Assembly: GCA_904424815.1 (NCBI GenBank)
Contig: CAJGBI010000002.1
Coordinates: 372,001-436,000 of the forward strand
Direction: 5' to 3'
DNA from: Puniceicoccaceae bacterium Marseille-Q1082
GTDB lineage: Bacteria; Verrucomicrobiota; Verrucomicrobiia; Opitutales; Intestinicryptomonadaceae
Length of the DNA stretch: 64,000 bases
Shown piece by piece: positions 4,411 through 62,105 of this stretch. Within the stretch, counting starts at the first letter, position 1. The number at the start of each line of letters is the position of its first letter. Made by a program: the position numbers and the translations under genes. The notes under the pieces were generated by a model. That model was not told where the DNA came from. It did not search any database and saw nothing but the letters and a program-made list of their open reading frames with translations.

Positions 4411-4700
4411 GGCGGCAGGGCCGCTTCCATTGAAGGGGCTGACGCCCCTTACGAAGATTGGCTTCGCCAATGCTTCTATCCCCTCCCCATTCCCAACAAA
4501 AAACGAACCTCCCACATGAGAGGTTCGTACACACTTCCGGAGTTCATTCCGAAAAACCCCAGTTCCCCGATTTGGCGTAATGATTTTGGATGAAGAGCGA
4601 GTATAGGGAAGCCGCCAAGGGCGCGTGGCGTATTCGACATACGCGAGCGGTCTTGGCGGCTTCCCTAACGGAGCTATTCGCCAAAAGCATTCGCCAAATC
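4411..4700. repeat. Stem-loop repeat, copy 1 (chain of hairpins with a terminal inverted repeat)
   Basis: The left part (4411-4568) is a chain of short hairpins: gcggc/gccgc, aaggggc/gcccctt, attggc/gccaat and acgaacctc/gaggttcgt. The right part (4569-4700) is one large imperfect palindrome. It opens with gatttggcg and closes with cgccaaatc, has a perfect 15-bp arm agggaagccgccaag (4605-4619) with cttggcggcttccct (4652-4666), and has the apex gcgtat/atacgc (4628-4644). The left part recurs almost unchanged at 59875 and 60280. The right edge touches the stop codon of the GH50-like gene (TAA on the minus strand, 4701-4703). No transposase is encoded, so this is a non-autonomous or regulatory element. 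Confidence 0.85.
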
Positions 4701-6815
4701 TTATTCGCCGAATCTCAGGCGGTACATCTTTCTGCTCATTTCGTTCATCGCGGCGGCCATATCGTATTTGGGGGTGTCGCAAATGTCTACGAAACCGAGG
4801 GCGCCGTTTTCGCCGTCGAATCTGCCGGTTGTATACTGGTCGGTGTACTGGAACCAGTGGGCGCCTATTATCATCGGATTTTTTACGGCGTCTTTCAGAT
4901 AGCTTTTCATAGATTTGGTGCGCTCCGCAGAGGAAGGTTTCGGGCGCAAACTCCCCCAGAAATTGCCCCTGTCGCCCGATCCGAAATGAAATTCCCCGAT
5001 GAGCACGGGTTTGTCGGCAATGCCGTCCACCAGCTTTTCTTTGACATCGTTCGGAGAGTCCCGGTAAATGTTGAAAGTCACGACATCGCAATTATCAAAG
5101 GCGGATTTTATCACAATCGGATTGAGCCAGCCGAAACCGAAGCGGCAGCCGAGGTACAGGGCGTCGGGAGAAGCCGACTTCACCGCGTCGCGGCACGCGG
5201 TAAAATAGGCGTCGGTAATAACCTTTTCGATGGCGGCGAAGTCCTCCTGCGCGGCGGGAACCGTCGTGTCAAAGTCCTTGCGGGCGAGGAAGTCGTCCCA
5301 ATCCTTGTAGTCGGACTTCCACGCGGCGTTGAGCGCGGAAATGTCGGAATACTTCTTTTTGAGCATGTCGCGGAAGGCGATTTTGCTGTGCTGCTCTGCC
5401 GGGCAGCTGAGCAGCGCGCGGCCTATCAGCCCGACTTTCCCCTGCCACGGGAGCTCGTTGTCAACGAAAGCGCCAATGCAGTAGGGCGAATTCAGCAGGT
5501 CGGCTTTCTTAGCGGCGTTTTGCTTCGTGATTTTCGCGAAATCCGGATGGAGGTAGTCGGGGAATTTCGTCCAAAAGAGGTCGAGTTTGAGGTTCTTGTT
5601 TTCGGGCGCCAGATACGCGGGGCGGCCGCTTCCCAGGGTCACGCTGAAAGGAATGTTTGCGCCGTTCATCAGGCGCTCGTCGCTCCACGCGCCGGAGGAG
5701 TTTACGCCCCATGCGTTGAGGCGCCCCCGAATCAGGGCGACTTTGTCGTCCTGGGACATTTCCCCGTATTTTTTATACATGTTGCGGGCGTTGAAATTCA
5801 TCGCCTTCATCGGCCCGCTGTGCTCCCCCTTTTTCGTGTCGTAGAAGCGCGCGCCGCCCCAGACATACTTGGGGTCGATTTTCTCGAAATAGTTTTCCCT
5901 GCCGGTCACAATGGTGGCGCCGCTCGCGCCGTTGGCGTTCACGCAGTCTATGCCCAGCGACCAGAACGGGTAGCCGTCGGGGTCGCGGAATGTCCACTTG
6001 CCGCCTATTTTGTCGAGCCTGAAGCGTCCGGTGCCCTCGGCTTTGAGGGCGTCGTTCGCATACCCGCCCCACTTGCTGCGGTGGGGAATCTTGGCGAGCT
6101 TGGCGTTGAATTCCGCCTCCTTTTTCTTCTGGGCTTCAAAGTCGGCGTCGGAATGGATTTTGTCCGGCCAGTCGCGGTGCTTGAACTGCCCGTATTCGTC
6201 GATAAACGGAAAAAATTTATCCTTTGGAATCAAGTATATCGGGTCGTCCGCCTTGGCGAATACGGAATTGTTGGGCAGAAATTTCATGCCCGTAAAATAC
6301 TCTTTGGCGTTGTCGAGCCACGAGTTCGGAAAGTAGGATATTTCAATGTCGTCCACGGCGATTTCGCTGCCGCCGGCGGATGTGACAGACACGTAGGCCT
6401 TTTTGCCCTCGGGAATGGCGGCGCGCAAAGACACCTGCCCGCGCGTCCCCTTTTTGCCGGAAAACGTCACCTCAGCGCATCTCTTGTCAGTCTCGACAAG
6501 CACGAAATTCATTCCCCCACCCAAAATGACGTAGGAAAACTTTACGACGGCGGTCTTGCCGCCCTCAATGCCGGAGGCCGGAAATTTCATAGAAAGCGGC
6601 CACTTTCTTTGGGTTTGGCCGATTGTGCTAACCCTGAGCGACTTTCCGGTTCCGGCTCTCGCCTCGCGGGAGTCGTCCAGCTTGAAGTCTCCAAAAGTGC
6701 TTATTTCCTCAAACGCGTTTCCGGAATCGAAATTTTCCGAAAAACACTTCTCCGCCGCATACGCTCCCGACGCGGCAAGAGACGCCCCCATGACAAATGC
6801 GTAAAACCGTTTCAT
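4701..6815 (-). CDS. Exported GH50-like (beta-agarase family) glycoside hydrolase
   Basis: A 704-residue secreted enzyme with signal peptide MKRFYAFVMGASLAASGAYA. Residues about 22-160 form a beta-sandwich, probably a carbohydrate-binding-like domain (GGGMNFVLVETDKR to SEIAVDDIEI). The remainder is a TIM barrel with the family-typical GKWTFRDPDGYPFWSLGIDCV (272-292). The candidate acid/base is Glu454 in GAFVDNELPW and the candidate nucleophile is Glu608 in VLIGEFHFG, the placement expected of clan GH-A enzymes such as GH50 and GH42. GH50 members cleave agarose-type beta-galactans; the actual substrate here is not proven. The next gene upstream on the same strand, 67 bases away, is an MFS transporter. 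The stop codon directly abuts the stem-loop repeat. Confidence 0.75.
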   Translation of the reverse strand: MKRFYAFVMGASLAASGAYAAEKCFSENFDSGNAFEEISTFGDFKLDDSREARAGTGKSLRVSTIGQTQRKWPLSMKFPASGIEGGKTAVVKFSYVILGGGMNFVLVETDKRCAEVTFSGKKGTRGQVSLRAAIPEGKKAYVSVTSAGGSEIAVDDIEISYFPNSWLDNAKEYFTGMKFLPNNSVFAKADDPIYLIPKDKFFPFIDEYGQFKHRDWPDKIHSDADFEAQKKKEAEFNAKLAKIPHRSKWGGYANDALKAEGTGRFRLDKIGGKWTFRDPDGYPFWSLGIDCVNANGASGATIVTGRENYFEKIDPKYVWGGARFYDTKKGEHSGPMKAMNFNARNMYKKYGEMSQDDKVALIRGRLNAWGVNSSGAWSDERLMNGANIPFSVTLGSGRPAYLAPENKNLKLDLFWTKFPDYLHPDFAKITKQNAAKKADLLNSPYCIGAFVDNELPWQGKVGLIGRALLSCPAEQHSKIAFRDMLKKKYSDISALNAAWKSDYKDWDDFLARKDFDTTVPAAQEDFAAIEKVITDAYFTACRDAVKSASPDALYLGCRFGFGWLNPIVIKSAFDNCDVVTFNIYRDSPNDVKEKLVDGIADKPVLIGEFHFGSGDRGNFWGSLRPKPSSAERTKSMKSYLKDAVKNPMIIGAHWFQYTDQYTTGRFDGENGALGFVDICDTPKYDMAAAMNEMSRKMYRLRFGE

Positions 6816-8320: not shown

Positions 8321-9853
8321 ATGAAATTCTTGAAAAAACTGTCCATCGCCGCCGCGGCCGCGGCGTCCGCAACGGCGCTCGCCGCCCCGACTTTCCCGAA
8401 GTCGGAGGCCGAAGACGCCGACAAGATAATGAGCAAGGAGTACTGGGCCATTTGGAACCCGGACGTCCAGAAGAAAATCGACGAAAACATCGAGAAAAAC
8501 CGCAAGGCCGACGCCGTGATAAACCTCGGCGAGCCCGCCGCCGGAGGGGACGTGAAAGTCGAGCAGATAAAGCACGACTTCATATTCGGCGCGCACATCT
8601 TCAACTTCAACCAGCTCGGAACCCCCGAGCGCAACAAAAAGTACAGGGATCTTTACGGCTCGCTCTTCAATTCCGCCACGGTCGCGCTCTACTGGAAGAA
8701 GCTCGAAATGCAGCCCAACCGCCCGCGCTTTGCGGAGGAATACTGGGACACGGAGGAGTGGTGGAACGGCTGCGAAAACCCGAAATCCCAGCCCCACTGG
8801 CGCAGGCCCGCGCCCGACCCCGTGGTGAAATTCCTTAACGAAAAGGGGGTCCGCGTGCACGGGCACCCGCTCGTGTGGGGCAACCAGACGTGGCACTATC
8901 CCGAATGGATTTTCCCGCTCATGACGAAAGGGGAAAAGGAAGCCTACAACAACCTTCCCAAAGACGGCAGATACGGCCTCGACAAAAAGAGCCTCCAAAA
9001 AATATCGCAGGAGGAAGCCGACAGACTCTTCGGGGGCATCGGGCAGAAAATCGCGGACCTCTACGAAAAGCGCGTCGCCGAAATCGCCGAGAGGTACGCC
9101 GGCAAAATCGACAGCTTCGACGTGGTGAACGAGTCCGCCACCGACTTCGCCGCCGGAGTGATGGTTCCAGGCTCCAAGGTCACGCGCAGCAGGTACGGAA
9201 TAATGCAGGGCGACTACGCCTTCCACGCCTTCAACATCGCCCAGAAGCGCCTGCCCGAAAACACCCTCTTCAACATAAACGACTACAAGACCGACAAGGA
9301 CTATGTCGCCCAAATAAAAGACCTCCAAAAGCGCGGAGCGCGCATAGACATCGCGGGAATGCAGATGCACCTCTTCAACCCGAAGGAATCCGCCAACATC
9401 GCCGCGGGCAAAAAAATCCAGACGCCCGACAAAATCTTCGGCAGCATGGACACCGTCGCGAAAACCGGACTGCCCATCCACATGAGCGAAATCACCGTGA
9501 CGGCTCCCGGCACCTCCAAGAGGGACTGGGACGTGCAGGCGGTGATAGCGCAAAACCTCTACCGCGCGTGGTTCAGCCACCCGAACGCCATGGGCATAAC
9601 GTGGTGGAATGTCGTGGACGACTGCGGCGCGCCTGGCGAGCCATCGTACTCCGGCATATTCACGCGCGACATGCAGCCCAAGTCGGCGTTCTACGCGCTC
9701 GACAACCTCATAAACAAAGAGTGGAAGACCAATCTCACGGTAAAGCCCGACGCCGACGGGAAAATCTCGTTCCGCGGGTTCAGGGGAACCTACAAGATTT
9801 CGTGGAAGGACAAATACGGCAGAGACCGCCAAATGCTCTACCATTTGAAATAA
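8321..9853 (+). CDS. GH10 endo-1,4-beta-xylanase, copy 1
   Basis: A secreted xylan-degrading enzyme of 510 residues. The ATG at 8321 is preferred because it gives a clean signal peptide (MKFLKKLSIAAAAAASATALA). The GH10 barrel shows the acid/base Glu271 in FDVVNES and the nucleophile Glu390 in IHMSEIT, with HGHPLVWG (180-187) and GITWWNVVD (425-433) also typical. A short N-terminal beta region (VINLGEPAAGGDVKVEQ) before the barrel fits GH10 proteins with a small fused module. It is followed by two terminators and then by a close paralogue at 9973. Near-identical DNA blocks are shared by the two copies at both ends but not in the middle. Confidence 0.93.
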   Translation: MKFLKKLSIAAAAAASATALAAPTFPKSEAEDADKIMSKEYWAIWNPDVQKKIDENIEKNRKADAVINLGEPAAGGDVKVEQIKHDFIFGAHIFNFNQLGTPERNKKYRDLYGSLFNSATVALYWKKLEMQPNRPRFAEEYWDTEEWWNGCENPKSQPHWRRPAPDPVVKFLNEKGVRVHGHPLVWGNQTWHYPEWIFPLMTKGEKEAYNNLPKDGRYGLDKKSLQKISQEEADRLFGGIGQKIADLYEKRVAEIAERYAGKIDSFDVVNESATDFAAGVMVPGSKVTRSRYGIMQGDYAFHAFNIAQKRLPENTLFNINDYKTDKDYVAQIKDLQKRGARIDIAGMQMHLFNPKESANIAAGKKIQTPDKIFGSMDTVAKTGLPIHMSEITVTAPGTSKRDWDVQAVIAQNLYRAWFSHPNAMGITWWNVVDDCGAPGEPSYSGIFTRDMQPKSAFYALDNLINKEWKTNLTVKPDADGKISFRGFRGTYKISWKDKYGRDRQMLYHLK

Positions 9854-9859
9854 GCATGC

Positions 9860-9930
9860 CGCCGCCCTCCGCAAAGGGGCGGCGTTTTCCGCACGGCAAA
9901 ACCGCGCCGCAGAATAGGCGGCGCGGTTTT
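9860..9930 (+). terminator. Double hairpin terminator after xylanase copy 1
   Basis: The first hairpin is cgccgccc (9860-9867) with gggcggcg (9877-9884) and four T. The second is a perfect 13-bp stem, aaaaccgcgccgc (9898-9910) with gcggcgcggtttt (9918-9930). The second arm works in both directions. Confidence 0.7.
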
Positions 9931-9972
9931 GAAATTCCGCCCCGTAAAAAAAATTAAAATCCGAAAACCGCA

Positions 9973-11520
9973 ATGAAACCGCTTGCCGCCCTCGCGCTCC
10001 TGTCCGCAGCCGCGTTGGTTTCGCCGTTCGCGCGCCAATACGCGCTCGCCGAAGCCGAAATAAAAATCCCGAAATCGCGGGAAGACGACGCGCGCAAAAT
10101 AGTGTCCCCCGAATATTGGGACGAATGGACGCCCGAACTCCGGCGGAAGATGGACGCCGACATCGAGAAATACCGCAAGGCCGACGCCGTTATAAACCTC
10201 GGCGAGCCCGCCGCCGGAGGGGACGTGAAAGTCGAGCAGATAAAGCACGACTTCATATTCGGCGCGCACATCTTCAACTTCAACCAGCTCGGAACCCCCG
10301 AGCGCAACAGAAAGTACAGGGATCTCTACGGCTCGCTCTTCAATTCCGCCACAATAGGATTTTATTGGAGCGACTTTGAAACCCAGCCCGGCCGCCCGCG
10401 CTTCGCGGAGGAATATTGGGACACGGAGGAGTGGTGGAACAACTGCAAAAATCCGCAGGAGCAGCGCCATTGGCGCAGGCCGGCGACGGATCCCGTTGTG
10501 GAATTTTGCAACAAAAAGGGAATCCGCGCGCACGGGCATCCGCTCGTGTGGACGGGTTTCTTTCCGTGGTGGATATACCTCGAAGAAATCCCGAAGGAAA
10601 AGCTCGAACTCTACCGCAAAATAAACCTGCCCAAAAAGAAAAACCCGAAGCTCAAACCCTTCTGGGATCTCGCGCAGGAGGACGCCGAAAAGATGTTTGC
10701 GGACGTCGGGGAGAAAATCGCCGAACTCTCCGAAAGGCGCGCGATGCAAATCGCGCGGAGGTACGGGGACAGGGTGCAGAGCTGGGACGTCGTAAACGAG
10801 GCGCAGAAGGACTACATCCGCGGAGTCCTTATCCCGGGAACGAAAGTTGCGCGCAGCCACATAGGGCTAATGCAGGGCGACTACGCTTTCCACGCCTTCA
10901 ACATCGCCCAAAAATATTTTCCGACGGGCGCCGTCCTCAACATCAACGACTACATCTGCGGCGAGAAATACGCAGAGCAGATAAAAGGCCTGCAAAAGCG
11001 CGGCGCGCGAATCGACGTCGCGGGCGTCCAGGAGCACGTATTCAACTACCCCGAACCGAAAAAAATAATGTCGGGCGAAAAATTCATATCCCCGGGCGAC
11101 CTCCGCAAAAGGCTGGACGCAACCGCAAAAACGGGGCTTAAAATACACGTCAGCGAAGTGACCATAACAGGCGACGACGACTCCCCCGAATCGCGCGCGC
11201 GGCAGGCTCTCTACGCCGAAAACCAGTACCGGCTGTGGTTCAGCCACCCGAACGCCATGGGCATAACGTGGTGGAATGTCGTGGACGGCTGCGGCATACG
11301 CGGAGAGCCCTCGTATTCGGGCATATTCACGCGCGACATGCGGCCCAAGCCGGCGTTCTACGCGCTCGACAACCTCATAAACAAAGAGTGGAAGACCAAT
11401 CTCACGGTAAAGCCCGACGCCGGCGGGAAAATCTCGTTCCGCGGGTTCAGGGGAACCTACAAGATTTCGTGGAAGGACAAATACGGAAGAGACCGCCAAA
11501 TGCTCTACCACTTAAAATGA
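9973..11520 (+). CDS. GH10 endo-1,4-beta-xylanase, copy 2
   Basis: Paralogue of the preceding xylanase, 515 residues, with an N-terminal signal (MKPLAALALLSAAALVSPFA). The acid/base is Glu276 in WDVVNEA and the nucleophile Glu395 in IHVSEVT, so it should be active. The middle differs: WTGFFPWWIYLEEIPKEK replaces the copy-1 substrate loop after HGHPLVW, which suggests a different subsite shape. The N-terminal block (GEPAAGGDVKVEQIKHDF) and the last 50 or so residues are nearly or fully identical to copy 1 and nearly identical in DNA. It is 28 bases ahead of the beta-helix gene and probably co-transcribed with it. Confidence 0.93.
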   Translation: MKPLAALALLSAAALVSPFARQYALAEAEIKIPKSREDDARKIVSPEYWDEWTPELRRKMDADIEKYRKADAVINLGEPAAGGDVKVEQIKHDFIFGAHIFNFNQLGTPERNRKYRDLYGSLFNSATIGFYWSDFETQPGRPRFAEEYWDTEEWWNNCKNPQEQRHWRRPATDPVVEFCNKKGIRAHGHPLVWTGFFPWWIYLEEIPKEKLELYRKINLPKKKNPKLKPFWDLAQEDAEKMFADVGEKIAELSERRAMQIARRYGDRVQSWDVVNEAQKDYIRGVLIPGTKVARSHIGLMQGDYAFHAFNIAQKYFPTGAVLNINDYICGEKYAEQIKGLQKRGARIDVAGVQEHVFNYPEPKKIMSGEKFISPGDLRKRLDATAKTGLKIHVSEVTITGDDDSPESRARQALYAENQYRLWFSHPNAMGITWWNVVDGCGIRGEPSYSGIFTRDMRPKPAFYALDNLINKEWKTNLTVKPDAGGKISFRGFRGTYKISWKDKYGRDRQMLYHLK

Positions 11521-38308: not shown

Positions 38309-38714
38309 CAAACCGCCCGCGCGAAAAACGCCCCGCTTATCTTTTAAACATGCGTGCGCGCGGCGAGCGCGCCATTTTCCGCGCGGCAGGCAGACACGGG
38401 CAAACTCGATATTCCAATGAGCGCCGCTCTATAAAAAATCCCCGTTCCAACGCCGCTTTAATACATATTCCGCCAGATTTGAAAAACCGCAAACTTCGGC
38501 CAGTCCGCGACGGCGGAAATGGCGCGGAAGAGATAAGCCGCCTATTTGCATTTGCGCCGCGCGCAAACAGATAAACGGCTAATGAAACCCGTAGTGTCCT
38601 TTCCGGCGGCAAGGGGGAATAGGCGCCTTGCAAAGCAATCTCCGCAAGGGGCTTTGCCCCCTTCAATGGCTGGAATGCCTCATGGCCGGCAGGCGCGCCT
38701 CGCGCAGAAATAAA
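38309..38714. other. Intergenic region with a partial stem-loop module
   Basis: No gene is supported between the terminator and the PEP-CTERM pseudogene. The stretch 38630-38705 carries aaggggc/gcccctt and ggcaggcgcgcctcgcgc, which closely resemble 60165-60235 in the repeat tract. The rest is featureless by eye. Confidence 0.5.
38630..38705. repeat. Partial copy of a stem-loop repeat module
   Basis: Contains the hairpin aaggggc-ttt-gcccctt and the string ggcaggcgcgcctcgcgc; the near match at 60165-60235 has agggggc-tt-gccccct and ggcaggcgcgccccgcgc. It lacks the gatttggcg end and the gaggttcgt hairpin of the full element. Confidence 0.55.
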
Positions 38715-44615: not shown

Positions 44616-46244
44616 TTAATTTTTATAATTTCTATACCTTAACGCCAATCCCAAGGCAAGCGCGCCAATGGCCGCCGCGCAAACGGCGGGTTCGGGAACC
44701 GACACGGTTATCAGCATTTGATTGTTTTCAAGCGCGTAATCCCATTCCCCGAGCCATTCTGAACCGTTTACGTTAAGCAATATCGTTTCTCCCTTTACGA
44801 GTGCGTCCAAACCGGCAATGCTGGCATTTTCCGCAAATTCCATTATTTCAATCTGCAATATGTCCTGCGCGGACAAGTCGGAAACCACGTTAATTTCCAA
44901 AATCGCGCCGTTTTCAAACGCCAGCCCTCCGCCCGAATTTACCTTAAAACTTGTGGATGAATCGGCGTCGGTATTTATGATAATCGAAGAGCCGCTCTTG
45001 ACAGCGAGATCAGCCGCGTTCAAAACCTCCAATTCCGCGCCGCTTTCAAGAGTTAACGCCGCGCCGCCCGAAATTGCCGCCGCTTCGCTTATTTTTGCGC
45101 TTATCATTTCTCCGCCTTCGGAAGCGGGCGTATACTTGCGGATTGAAAAATTGTCGTCAGAGGAAACCATGGAAAAATTTTCAATCCGTCCGTCACTCCA
45201 AATTGTATTTTTTATTTTATATCTTCCAGTCACGCGATTCATACTAATCCACCTTAAATCGCTTCCTGTAAAATCTGCATTCTCTAAGGTAACCCCTGCA
45301 AAACTTCCATTTGCCAGATTGGCATTTGAAAAGTCCGCATTAGTCAGATCTATATTAGTCGATGATTGATATACAGAAATAAAACCTGCATTTGTAAGGT
45401 CTTGACCGGAAAAATTCCAAGCGCGCATATCGTTATTTATTTGAGTATTGGCAAAAACAACACCAGAAAGATTTTTATCTTTATAGCTCTTAGTAGAATA
45501 CAGTTGTTCTTTCGTAAGAACACCGGGAGTATTCGAACCAATTGTTGCGCCATTTATTATCGCATCTGTGAAATTTATAGATGAAATATCGTGAGCAAAG
45601 TTAATATTTGCATTTGTAAGATTTTGCCCAGAAAAATCTAAGTTGGTTAAAGCAAGATATTCAAGGTTAATTCCCGAAAGATCTTTATCTTTATAACTTT
45701 TCGTGGAATATAGCATATCTTTGGTGAATTGTCCGGCAGTTGAGCTGAAATCTGCTCCAGTTATTACAGCATCTGTAAAATTTGCATTATCCAATTTAGA
45801 AAAGCTAAACTTAGCGTTAGTAAGGTCTTGACCGGAAAAATCGCAATTCCTAAAAGAAGAACAATGGGAAAAATCAATTCCCGAAAGATTTTTATCCTTA
45901 TAACTTTTTGTAGAATACAGCTGTTCTTTTGTAAATCCGCTATAATAAAAATTTGCACCATTTATTACGGCGTTCGTAAAATTCGCGCTTGCAAAATCGT
46001 CAGCCATTTCAAAACTTGCGTTCACTAGAATTGCGTTTGTGAAGTTGGCATATTTGTAGCTTACCCCTTTGTTAGAGGATGATGAAAATATTGTGCCGAT
46101 AGCAGTTGTACCCACCCAAGTTGAATATTGACGATCGCTTCCGGCAAAATTTCTTCCGCTCACATCTTGTCCATTATAATTTTCGTCATCTGCATATATA
46201 GTAAGCGCAGAAGAAAATATTATAGCATATAAGAATAATTTCAT
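44616..46244 (-). CDS. Pentapeptide-repeat PEP-CTERM surface protein with 69-residue modules
   Basis: A 542-residue surface protein from the ATG at 46244 (signal MKLFLYAIIFSSALTIYA); an upstream in-frame ATG at 46286 would overlap a -10-like TATAAT (minus strand, 46274-46279). Residues about 65-330 carry pentapeptide repeats of the A(D/N)LXX type (ANFTNA, ADFSNANLANGSF). Within these are three modules that each open with TKEQLYSTKSYKDK-like text at about 104, 173 and 243, a period of 69-70. The C-terminal region is beta-rich and ends with VPEPAVCAAAIGALALGLAL and a basic tail. The DNA is AT-richer than its neighbours. It is divergent from a recombinase gene. Confidence 0.85.
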   Translation of the reverse strand: MKLFLYAIIFSSALTIYADDENYNGQDVSGRNFAGSDRQYSTWVGTTAIGTIFSSSSNKGVSYKYANFTNAILVNASFEMADDFASANFTNAVINGANFYYSGFTKEQLYSTKSYKDKNLSGIDFSHCSSFRNCDFSGQDLTNAKFSFSKLDNANFTDAVITGADFSSTAGQFTKDMLYSTKSYKDKDLSGINLEYLALTNLDFSGQNLTNANINFAHDISSINFTDAIINGATIGSNTPGVLTKEQLYSTKSYKDKNLSGVVFANTQINNDMRAWNFSGQDLTNAGFISVYQSSTNIDLTNADFSNANLANGSFAGVTLENADFTGSDLRWISMNRVTGRYKIKNTIWSDGRIENFSMVSSDDNFSIRKYTPASEGGEMISAKISEAAAISGGAALTLESGAELEVLNAADLAVKSGSSIIINTDADSSTSFKVNSGGGLAFENGAILEINVVSDLSAQDILQIEIMEFAENASIAGLDALVKGETILLNVNGSEWLGEWDYALENNQMLITVSVPEPAVCAAAIGALALGLALRYRNYKN

Positions 46245-59874: not shown

Positions 59875-60039
59875 GGCGGCAGGGCCGCTTCCATTGAAGG
59901 GGCTGGCGCCCCTTACGAAGATTGGCTTTGCCAATGCTTCTATCCCCTATCCATTCCCAACAAAAAACGAACCTCCTATGAGAGGTTCGTTAACACTTCC
60001 GGAGTTCGTTCTGAAAAACCTCGGGTTCCCGATTTGGCG
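59875..60039. repeat. Stem-loop repeat, copy 2 (core)
   Basis: Starts ggcggcagggccgc and runs through the same chain of hairpins as copy 1 (aaggggc/gcgcccctt, attggc/gccaat, acgaacctc/gaggttcgt) to gatttggcg at 60031-60039. Unlike copies 1 and 3 it is not followed by the matching cgccaaatc end but by different hairpins (60049-60127). Confidence 0.85.
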
Positions 60040-60048
60040 CAATGAAAA

Positions 60049-60127
60049 CGAAAGCTTATTTTATCCGAAGCGCAGCGAGGCTATAAAATAAGGCTTTCGG
60101 GAAGGATAAAATGCGATAGCATTTTAT
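60049..60127. repeat. Two hairpins replacing the terminal palindrome of copy 2
   Basis: The first is cgaaagcttattttat (60049-60064) facing ataaaataaggctttcg (60083-60099), with one bulged base. The second is a perfect pair, ataaaatgc (60106-60114) with gcattttat (60119-60127). They are AT-rich in a GC-rich tract. Confidence 0.7.
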
Positions 60128-60164
60128 TCGGATATATACAAAACTCCATATGCGGAAACTTCGG

Positions 60165-60235
60165 GGGCAGGCGCATTGGCTTTGCCAATCGCCAGGGGGC
60201 TTGCCCCCTCTGCGGCAGGCGCGCCCCGCGCCCGC
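60165..60235. repeat. Second stem-loop module between copies 2 and 3
   Basis: Holds attggc-ttt-gccaat and agggggc-tt-gccccct, then ggcaggcgcgccccgcgc. It matches the partial module at 38630-38705. Confidence 0.55.
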
Positions 60236-60279
60236 CCAGCGCAACCAAGCCAGCGAATCCATTTTGGATGCGGGGCAAG

Positions 60280-60568
60280 GGCGGCAGGGCCGCTTCCATT
60301 GAAGGGGCTGGCGCCCCTTACGAAGATTGGCTTTGCCAATGCTTCTATCCCCTCCCCGTTCCCAAGACAAAACGAACCTCCCACATGAGAGGTTCGTACA
60401 CGCTTCCGGAGTTCGTTATGAAAAACCTCGGGTTCCCGATTTGGCGCAATGATTTTGGATGCGGGGCAAGGCGCGAGGAAAAGCCGCGGCCGAAGCGTAC
60501 TTTTAGTACGCGAGGGTGCGGCTTATTCCGAAGCAACGCAGCCCCGCGCCAAAAGCATTCGCCAAATC
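60280..60568. repeat. Stem-loop repeat, copy 3 (full length)
   Basis: The core at 60280-60437 is nearly identical to copies 1 and 2. The terminal palindrome (60438-60568) opens gatttggcg and closes cgccaaatc like copy 1. Its inner arms differ but still pair: gcggggc (60461-60467) with gccccgc (60541-60547), aagccgc (60481-60487) with gcggctt (60518-60524), and apex gcgtac/gtacgc (60495-60511). The right end overlaps the guaA stop codon (60567-60569). Confidence 0.85.
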
Positions 60569-62105
60569 ATTCCCATTCTATTGTCGCCGGGGGCTTCGAG
60601 GATATGTCGAGGCAGACCCTGTTGACGCCCTTGACTTCGTTTATGATGCGGTTGGAGATTTTTGCGAGAAGCTCGTGGGGGATATGCGCCCAGTCCGCCG
60701 TCATGGCGTCCTGGCTTTCGACGATGCGGAGGGCAATGACGTTGTCGTAGGTGCGCTCGTCGCCCATTACGCCGACGGTATTGACGGGGAGGAACACGGC
60801 GAACGCCTGCCAAACTTTATCGTAATAGCCGCCAGAGCGCATTTCGTCCATGAGTATGGCGTCGGCTTCGCGGAGGATGTCGAGGCGCTTTTTGGTGATG
60901 TCGCCGACGACGCGCACGCCGAGGCCCGGGCCCGGGAACGGATGGCGCCAGAGGACTTCGCGGGACAGGCCGAGCTCGGCTCCGAGCGCGCGGACTTCGT
61001 CTTTGAAGAGCTCGCGGAGAGGTTCGAGAAGCCGGAGCTTCATGCGCTTGGGCAGCCCGCCGACATTGTGGTGGCTCTTGATGAGGGAGGCGGGATTGCC
61101 GGCAATCGGCACGCTTTCGATGACGTCGGGATATAGTGTGCCCTGCGCGAGAAAATCGACTTTGCCGATCGACTTGACGGTCTTGTCAAAAACTTCCACG
61201 AAAGTCTTGCCGATGATTTTGCGTTTGCGCTCGGGGTCGGCGACTCCCGCGAGCCGGCTGAGGAAGAGCCTTTCGGCGCGCACGGTTTTCATGCGCATCT
61301 TGAAGTTGTCCTTGAAGAGCCTTTCGACTTTGGCGCGCTCGTCTTTGCGGAGAAGGCCGTTGTCGACGAACACGCAGGTGAGCCGGTCGCCGACCGCCTT
61401 GTGTATGAGCGCCGCCGCCACCGACGAGTCAACCCCGCCGCTGAGACCGAGGATTACTTTTTTGTCGCCGACCTTTTCGCGAATGTCGGCTATCGCGCGC
61501 TCCACATAGTCGGACATCTTCCAGTCGCCGGTGCAGCCGCAGATTTTATAGAGAAAATTCTTTATGATTTCCATGCCGCGCGGCGTGTGGACGACCTCGG
61601 GGTGGAACTGCATTCCGTAGAAGCGGCGCGACTCGTCCGCCACGAGCGCGTAGGCGGAATTTTCGGTCGTTCCGACCGCCTTGAAGCCCTTTGGGAGCCT
61701 TTCGATTTTGTCGCCGTGCGAGTTCCAGACCTGAATGGGGGATTTTATGCCCGCCAGAAGCTTTCCGCCGCCGTTGAAAGAGAGCGTGCCTAGGCCGTAT
61801 TCGCGCCGCCTGCTGGATACGATTTCGCCGCCGAGCATTTTGCCCATGAGCTGCAATCCATAGCATATTCCGAGCACGGGAACGCCGAGCTCGAAAATTT
61901 TCGGGTCGGGACGCGGGGAGCCCTTCGCAAGGACGCTCGCCGGGCCGCCCGAGAGAATGACGCCGCAGACGCCGCGCTTTTTGAGGTCGGACGCCCTGGT
62001 GTTGAAAGGCATTATTTCGGAATATACGCTGCACTCGCGGATGCGGCGGGCGATGACTTGCGTGTATTGCGAGCCGAAGTCTAAGACTGCTATCTTCTGG
62101 TTCAT
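60567..62105 (-). CDS. guaA: GMP synthase (glutamine-hydrolysing)
   Basis: GuaA converts XMP to GMP. At 512 residues it has the normal length. The glutamine amidotransferase half holds [11 protein letters not shown] (catalytic Cys) and [10 protein letters not shown] (His, Glu). The ATP pyrophosphatase half starts with [19 protein letters not shown]. The C-terminal dimer domain ends [16 protein letters not shown], the invariant GMP synthase terminus. The stop codon overlaps the end of repeat copy 3. Confidence 0.97.

Follow-up and report, generated by a model that had tools for sequence, protein, structure and literature searches.

The window, the whole 64,000-nucleotide stretch analysed here, comes from Puniceicoccaceae bacterium Marseille-Q1082, whose genome is 2.70 Mb in three contigs (C1, C2 and C3). 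It carries three copies of a structured repeat, all on the plus strand. Copy 1 consists of a 5′ module (4411..4568), defined by its fold and its recurrence in the genome, and a 132-nt terminal palindrome (4569..4700) with inner arms AGGGAAGCCGCCAAG / CTTGGCGGCTTCCCT. The first-pass annotation had described four small hairpins followed by a large palindrome; the palindrome was recovered, and the small hairpins number five by fold (4411-4425, 4433-4450, 4453-4476, 4503-4528, and 4537-4550). A consensus scan marked 4503..4528 on the minus strand as an intrinsic-terminator-like hairpin with a T tail, facing as the neighboring gene reads. This gene (4701..6815, minus strand) has a weak Glyco_hydro_42 match, and its TAA stop (4701-4703) touches the palindrome. 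Copy 2 (59875..60045; C2:431875-432045) comprises a 5′ module and only the beginning of the opening arm. From 59875, it has its first 173 nt in common with the repeat before a different insert takes over, and it lacks a closing arm. The alternative insert (60046..60279, plus strand) separates copies 2 and 3 and ends in attttggatgcggggcaag, which recurs in copy 3; similar inserts are found at other loci. Copy 3 has a 5′ module (60280..60437), delimited by sequence, BLAST and fold, and a 131-nt terminal palindrome (60438..60568) with another inner-arm family. It abuts guaA (60567..62105, minus strand), whose TGA stop (60567-60569, minus-strand reading) takes its GA from element bases 60567-60568. 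The outer end of both window palindromes touches the stop codon of a neighboring minus-strand gene. The bounds, apex, and swapped inner arms first reported for copies 1 and 3 were correct as quoted. Fold prediction gave z = -9.95 for copy 1 and -6.50 for copy 3 (60280-60568), and equally stable shuffles were 0/200 for each. A lone inverted copy of one small-hairpin module lies at 38636-38669.

BLAST with copy 1 returned 128 pieces in the genome, some of which are self-matches of the palindrome on the opposite strand. At up to three mismatches, 46 sites match the 20-nt closing arm, 31 of them exactly, and a reversed-pattern control has 0; the repeat, which on the first reading might still have proved rare, has many copies. 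Forty-two of the 46 closing arms were examined, the four left out being three-mismatch matches with no copy 1 BLAST piece nearby. C1:1221942, counted among the 42, is unlikely to be an element. Among 39 closing arms first parsed, 32 belong to terminal hairpins of 127-132 nt (28 distinct), six had no opening arm by pattern, and one had a 206-nt span; a covariance model later recovered some closing arms that pattern parsing missed. The hairpin ends are GATTTGGCG/CGCCAAATC. The outer arms and apex are nearly constant across the genome, and in the middle, read by eye, no fewer than five arm families replace one another; a sixth adjoins the gene at C1:1440861. Inner arms are swapped as blocks with pairing retained. 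Many loci are arrays of repeated opening halves in which the closing arm is confined to the final unit, with a period near 170 nt at several loci. No genes were noticed by eye inside the arrays that were read. Contigs C2 and C3 start within or beside element copies (closing arms C2:256-275 and C3:234-253), so the repeat probably breaks assemblies. A second hairpin class, 122 nt with GGCGCGT ends, has four near-identical members within 28 kb (C1:586653, 590499, 605453, and 614586). TTAG precedes each, and the stop ends at 0, -9, -9, and -10 nt, respectively.

Read along the abutting gene, the element starts GATTTGGCGAATGC. A gene stop lies at the outer end in 37 of the 42 closing arms. In 22, a T and the two bases that open the element form the stop (20 TGA, and 2 TAA where the element starts AA). 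A TAA or TAG ends no more than one base from the junction in four, an in-frame eight-residue tail closes with TAG at +27 in eight, and an element-borne TGA at +7 is read in the third frame in three. Gene-end offsets in the 37 are -1, 0, +1, +2, +7 or +27, and a gene end at the same offsets is found for 200 of 20,000 positions drawn at random from the sampled genome (1.0%). These offsets were chosen after seeing the data, so a wider range of -3..+30 was also used, giving 37/42 closing arms versus 1,230/20,000 random positions (6.2%), and 30/42 versus 237/20,000 when ORFs had to reach 300 aa. Automatic gene choice gives 36/42; the 37th junction, fabF, was assigned by hand because the automatic choice took a longer wrong frame. 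The third frame has no early stop of its own. A TGG to TGA change is present in 3/3 third-frame copies and 0/39 others, counts in which a third-frame copy without a close stop would evade assignment, and one similar case occurs in the family genome G018. The base before the element is T in 34/42 copies. The five closing arms off stops are one at truA, whose stop comes 14 nt ahead of the junction, two that lack a clear gene, one near a contig end (C3), and the probable non-element. The first-pass annotation missed both the constancy of the outer arms and the junction at stop codons, which tell more than the inner arms it singled out.

Eight copies place one predicted C-terminal tail on eight unrelated proteins, as DLANAFGE (six), DLANDFGE (one), or ALANAFGE (one), each at the gene's end. 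The tailed proteins include aspartate-semialdehyde dehydrogenase (Asd), CoaD, porphobilinogen synthase (HemB), HisF, SppA, and O-acetylhomoserine sulfhydrylase. The HisF model stops at residue 251 of 259, immediately ahead of the eight-residue tail. C-terminal models for an aldolase and HisG matched through their last positions. The family models for Asd, CoaD, and HemB extend some residues into the tail, which therefore seems to have replaced some native residues. At loci L165, L176, and L186 of G002 and G017, the closing arm is translated as a hydrophobic, Arg-rich C-terminal end, e.g. ALAIAFALMRRR. We take these ends to be PEP-CTERM-like; a Pfam search on L186 gave no match.

Orthologous gene ends in other species mostly lack the hairpin, which is missing in 11/11 relatives at guaA, 15/16 at rplS, and 16/17 at ftsK. 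The guaA protein end is identical in 11/11 relatives with a TAA (6) or TAG (5) stop, and TGA is found in the Marseille-Q1082 genome only. Stops of rplS in 16 relatives are TAA (14) and TAG (2), with 0 TGA, and all three types are used at ftsK in 17 relatives. A model search over all 47 loci placed the hairpin at these genes in the Marseille-Q1082 genome, and elsewhere only at rplS in G018 and ftsK in G015. These two exceptions are different hairpins at different offsets: the G018 hairpin lies three bases past a TAA, and the G015 hairpin provides the last arginine codon and a TAG.

Pairing was assessed in an alignment of 29 distinct hairpins (28 from the Marseille-Q1082 genome and one from G008) using RNAalifold. 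The consensus has 45 pairs, 20 with two-sided changes. Paired cells amount to 97.5%, versus 34-43% with slid partners and 83.6% in shuffles, and the covariation score is 0.402, versus at most 0.094 slid and at most 0.151 shuffled. The shuffle controls are optimistic, with aligned rows that are related to each other. Further pair types show no excess over shuffles (39 versus 40.6; 431/500 shuffles as high). The earlier claim that the palindrome changes in sequence and keeps its pairing is borne out across the 29 hairpins, with two-sided changes well above the slid-partner controls and a hairpin length that is near constant.

The plus strand folds better in 28/28 hairpins of the Marseille-Q1082 genome, 30/36 of G018, and 12/14 others. 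It has G.T pairs rather than A.C oppositions at 75:9, 104:63, and 50:18 in the same three sets. In both counts, the copies within the genome are non-independent and the relatives' orientation was picked by the model, itself derived from plus-strand sequences. The G.T excess and the better plus-strand folding fit a single strand as the folded working form, and RNA and single-stranded DNA are both compatible with it. The part of the first-pass proposal that named a folded single strand is therefore upheld; its further suggestion that this form is selected and arm-to-arm template-switch repair may each account for the pairing. The strand that folds better runs antisense to the gene at whose stop the hairpin sits, and the terminator-like hairpin is oriented with that gene, opposite to the better-folding strand. 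The strands of the four 122-nt second-class hairpins differ almost nothing in folding. A k-turn-like apex, judged by eye, is inconsistent between inner-arm families.

A covariance model was built from the 29 hairpins and used to search other genomes. Among the matches listed, 8/19 family genomes have the hairpin, with 88 matches in the Marseille-Q1082 genome (both strands counted), 68 in G018, 14 in G008, 7 in G017, 4 in G015, 2 in G002, and 1 each in G003 and G012. Twenty stretches of G018, some with two or three of its 68 matches, were sampled and hold 47 matches, of which 36 were used after removal of 8 second-strand duplicates, 2 partial matches, and 1 cut at a contig end. Their closing ends lie -3 to +8 nt from the stop of an ORF of at least 90 aa in 18/36, versus 0/36 for opening ends. 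The G018 element ends are mostly TTTAGG. An order-wide search at 1e-5 found matches in 10/132 genomes spanning five genera and as many families. Outside the family, the matches are weak (~40-48 bits) and 115-128 nt long, and most share an apex motif of the form GAGCGTA...TACGTGA. Beyond the family, 9/13 hairpins are away from a clear stop. In G030, a gene end lies within 5 nt of the hairpin or is joined to it by a short tail in 4/4 cases, and in G033, G048, G049, G079, and G123, 0/9 are at a clear gene end. Related hairpins are present in five families of one order, at stops in the family of Marseille-Q1082 and in G030 and not clearly so in the other four genera read. The outer arms of the four G030 hairpins (L254:1501-1622 among them) vary by locus.

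The closing arm matched eight stretches among GTDB contigs, a set from which records of the Marseille-Q1082 genome may have been excluded. One is the sister-genome copy CASFDK010000027 in the same-genus genome G008, and the remaining seven were taken as chance. One IMG/VR contig matched. Order-wide, the closing-arm pattern at up to two mismatches hit at least 58/372 genomes, nearly all as single scattered matches; these were judged chance, setting aside G007 and G008, which were inspected. Rfam returned nothing credible for the hairpin, either at the gathering threshold for the window and 19 relative loci or at a relaxed threshold for copy 1 and four loci. A literature search, with most subscription papers outside reach, gave no description that was recognized as the same element.

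These data are best explained by a dispersed, MITE-like hairpin element that is moved in trans and lodges at stop codons, a reading to which we assign a probability of roughly 0.62. Many unrelated genes would have received an insertion at their 3′ end, mostly just after the T of the stop. The first bases of the element, in the reading direction of the gene, stand in for the lost stop, as GA after T or through a short in-frame tail to TAG, and the terminator-like hairpin behind the main hairpin faces the host gene. With its stop and terminator-like hairpin supplied by the element, the host gene would acquire a new stop and 3′ UTR, probably along with a new terminator, from which the host may benefit. 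A trans-acting enzyme presumably recognizes the hairpin as a single strand, of DNA or RNA, and the transposition itself would precede expansion of arrays through tandem duplication and arm exchange. The target duplication is undefinable because the left end is modular and varying.

Searches for an autonomous copy or a cognate enzyme found neither. This weighs against the preferred reading, as do the five closing arms off stops, the 18/36 closing ends that fail in G018, the 9/9 hairpins away from a clear gene end in five genomes outside the family, the antisense direction of the better-folding strand, the models that extend into the tail of Asd, CoaD, and HemB, and the further pair types at shuffle level. 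The first-pass annotation had suggested looking for a linked RAYT or IS200/IS605-type transposase, and this search came back empty: Y1 transposases (PF01797) were found in 0/14 genus genomes, including that of Marseille-Q1082, a genus to which G018 does not belong. A control for PF01797 was positive in 5/14 named genomes. The RVT_1 domain is absent from the Marseille-Q1082 genome and 17/18 family relatives, and G018 has two. A bolder version of the reading is that this is a class of mobile hairpins homing to stop codons, for example via mRNA or the terminating ribosome or via single-stranded DNA at gene ends, and carrying replacement stops that spare the host gene. We regard it as less likely than not. 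Hairpins of the same build are present in five or more families of a single order.

The pairing could be a product of mutation rather than selection, with the arms mutually corrected by template switching during replication. Arms do change block-wise, and at L254 of G030 a 29-nt arm repeats the last codons of its host gene perfectly in inverted orientation, hinting at fold-back copying of the target. Pure correction should, however, remove unpaired positions, and by eye the apex, internal loops, and basal mismatch recur across inner-arm families; length is also steady at 115-128 nt in four other families. We consider this account possible but doubtful. Somewhat less probable is that the targeting is only apparent, with random insertion after T and survivors limited to those leaving a whole protein and an early stop. 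It would explain why T precedes 6/8 tail copies, which need none for a stop, as well as 34/42 overall, and why the third-frame copies carry a stop-making change in all three cases. Survival alone nevertheless predicts many intergenic copies off stops, and at most 5/42 are there.

Selection acting on a functional 3′-UTR structure, in which hairpin and terminator stabilize or end the upstream mRNA, stop-codon copies are kept, and recombination spreads them, is unlikely. The concentration of junctions at stops, the terminator-like hairpin facing the abutting gene, and the housekeeping role of many named hosts all agree with it. Against these stand the better folding of the antisense strand and the absence of the hairpin from most guaA, rplS, and ftsK orthologues, and mRNA protection needs no 1-2 nt precision at the stop. 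Target-primed reverse transcription by a retroelement would leave a constant 3′ end at the target and a variable 5′ end, as seen in the constant closing end and variable left end, and the would-be RNA strand is the one that folds better; with no RVT_1 in the Marseille-Q1082 genome or 17/18 family relatives, we consider this very improbable. Group II introns were rejected, with no Rfam match and no RVT_1 in the genome.

The dispersed element is short, hairpin-forming, and has no recognized transposase gene (arrays judged by eye), as MITEs are in general. The nearest kind is the long-hairpin MITEs (ERIC, RPE, RUP, and Correia), which are similar in size and hairpin form; the present family differs in sitting at stops in 37/42, carrying a stop, and lacking TA at the closing end. 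The enterobacterial repetitive intergenic consensus, ERIC or RU-1 (127 bp), is alike in length, long hairpin, and many copies. In one described case, an ERIC repeat apparently removed a gene's normal stop and lengthened the protein (PMC2759123), and ERIC is tabulated with TA termini and a target duplication (PMC2229807). The gene fusions described there are single cases, in contrast to the stop-codon position of the present element, and TA precedes its closing end, the one end scored, in 1/42 only; the comparison is by description, not sequence. Rickettsia palindromic elements (RPE) coexist with coding sequence, in frame inside coding regions. The RPE comparison, also by description rather than sequence, is with palindromic repeats of similar size in a different phylum that lie within genes, whereas the present element is at the gene end and supplies the stop. 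An in-frame product of the RPE type would correspond here to the predicted tail of 8/42 copies, each at a gene's end. RPE are given as 105-146 bp with long stem-loops (PMC2229807).

REPs measure 20-40 bp and bear a GTAG or CGTC tag, and the verrucomicrobial O. terrae is reported to have GTAG repeats (PMC3733652). REP/BIME and REPIN sequences are dispersed extragenic palindromes like the present element. REP/RAYT membership was ruled out by the 127-132 nt length, the ends, and the 0/14 Y1 transposase result, and, with no Rfam match, the earlier view that this is not obviously a REP is sustained. Integron attC sites recombine as folded single strands; their ends are conserved, their middle varies, and they are located after stop codons. 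The present element resembles them in having a folded form, constant ends, a variable middle, and a position after stops. The attC end consensus is RYYYAAC/GTTRRRY; the element differs in lacking these ends by eye and in having no Rfam match.

Gene-end palindromic repeats are usually ascribed to loose tolerance of intergenic DNA. Here, most junctions are exact to a base or two and the element brings the stop codon, and copies inserted in the frame with no early stop bear a stop-making change inside the element. Together with relatives across the order, this makes the way repeats find gene ends, whether guided by translation or replication, testable.

Element orientation is clustered. On C1, 7/8 are minus up to 660 kb and 14/17 are plus from 814 kb; on C2, 9/11 are plus up to 433 kb and 3/3 are minus from 502 kb; and on C3, 2/2 are plus. 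Cluster boundaries were set post hoc, and the counts include C1:895843 and omit the doubtful C1:1221942. GC skew on the genome was too weak for placing an origin or terminus. The clustering looks replichore-like, though unseparated from gene strand bias. Two further repeats lie in the window. At 8394-11501, two neighboring stretches ~1.67 kb apart are 71-91% identical and are likely a tandem gene duplication. At 45380-45934, three internal repeats ~210 nt apart lie within a 556-aa ORF.
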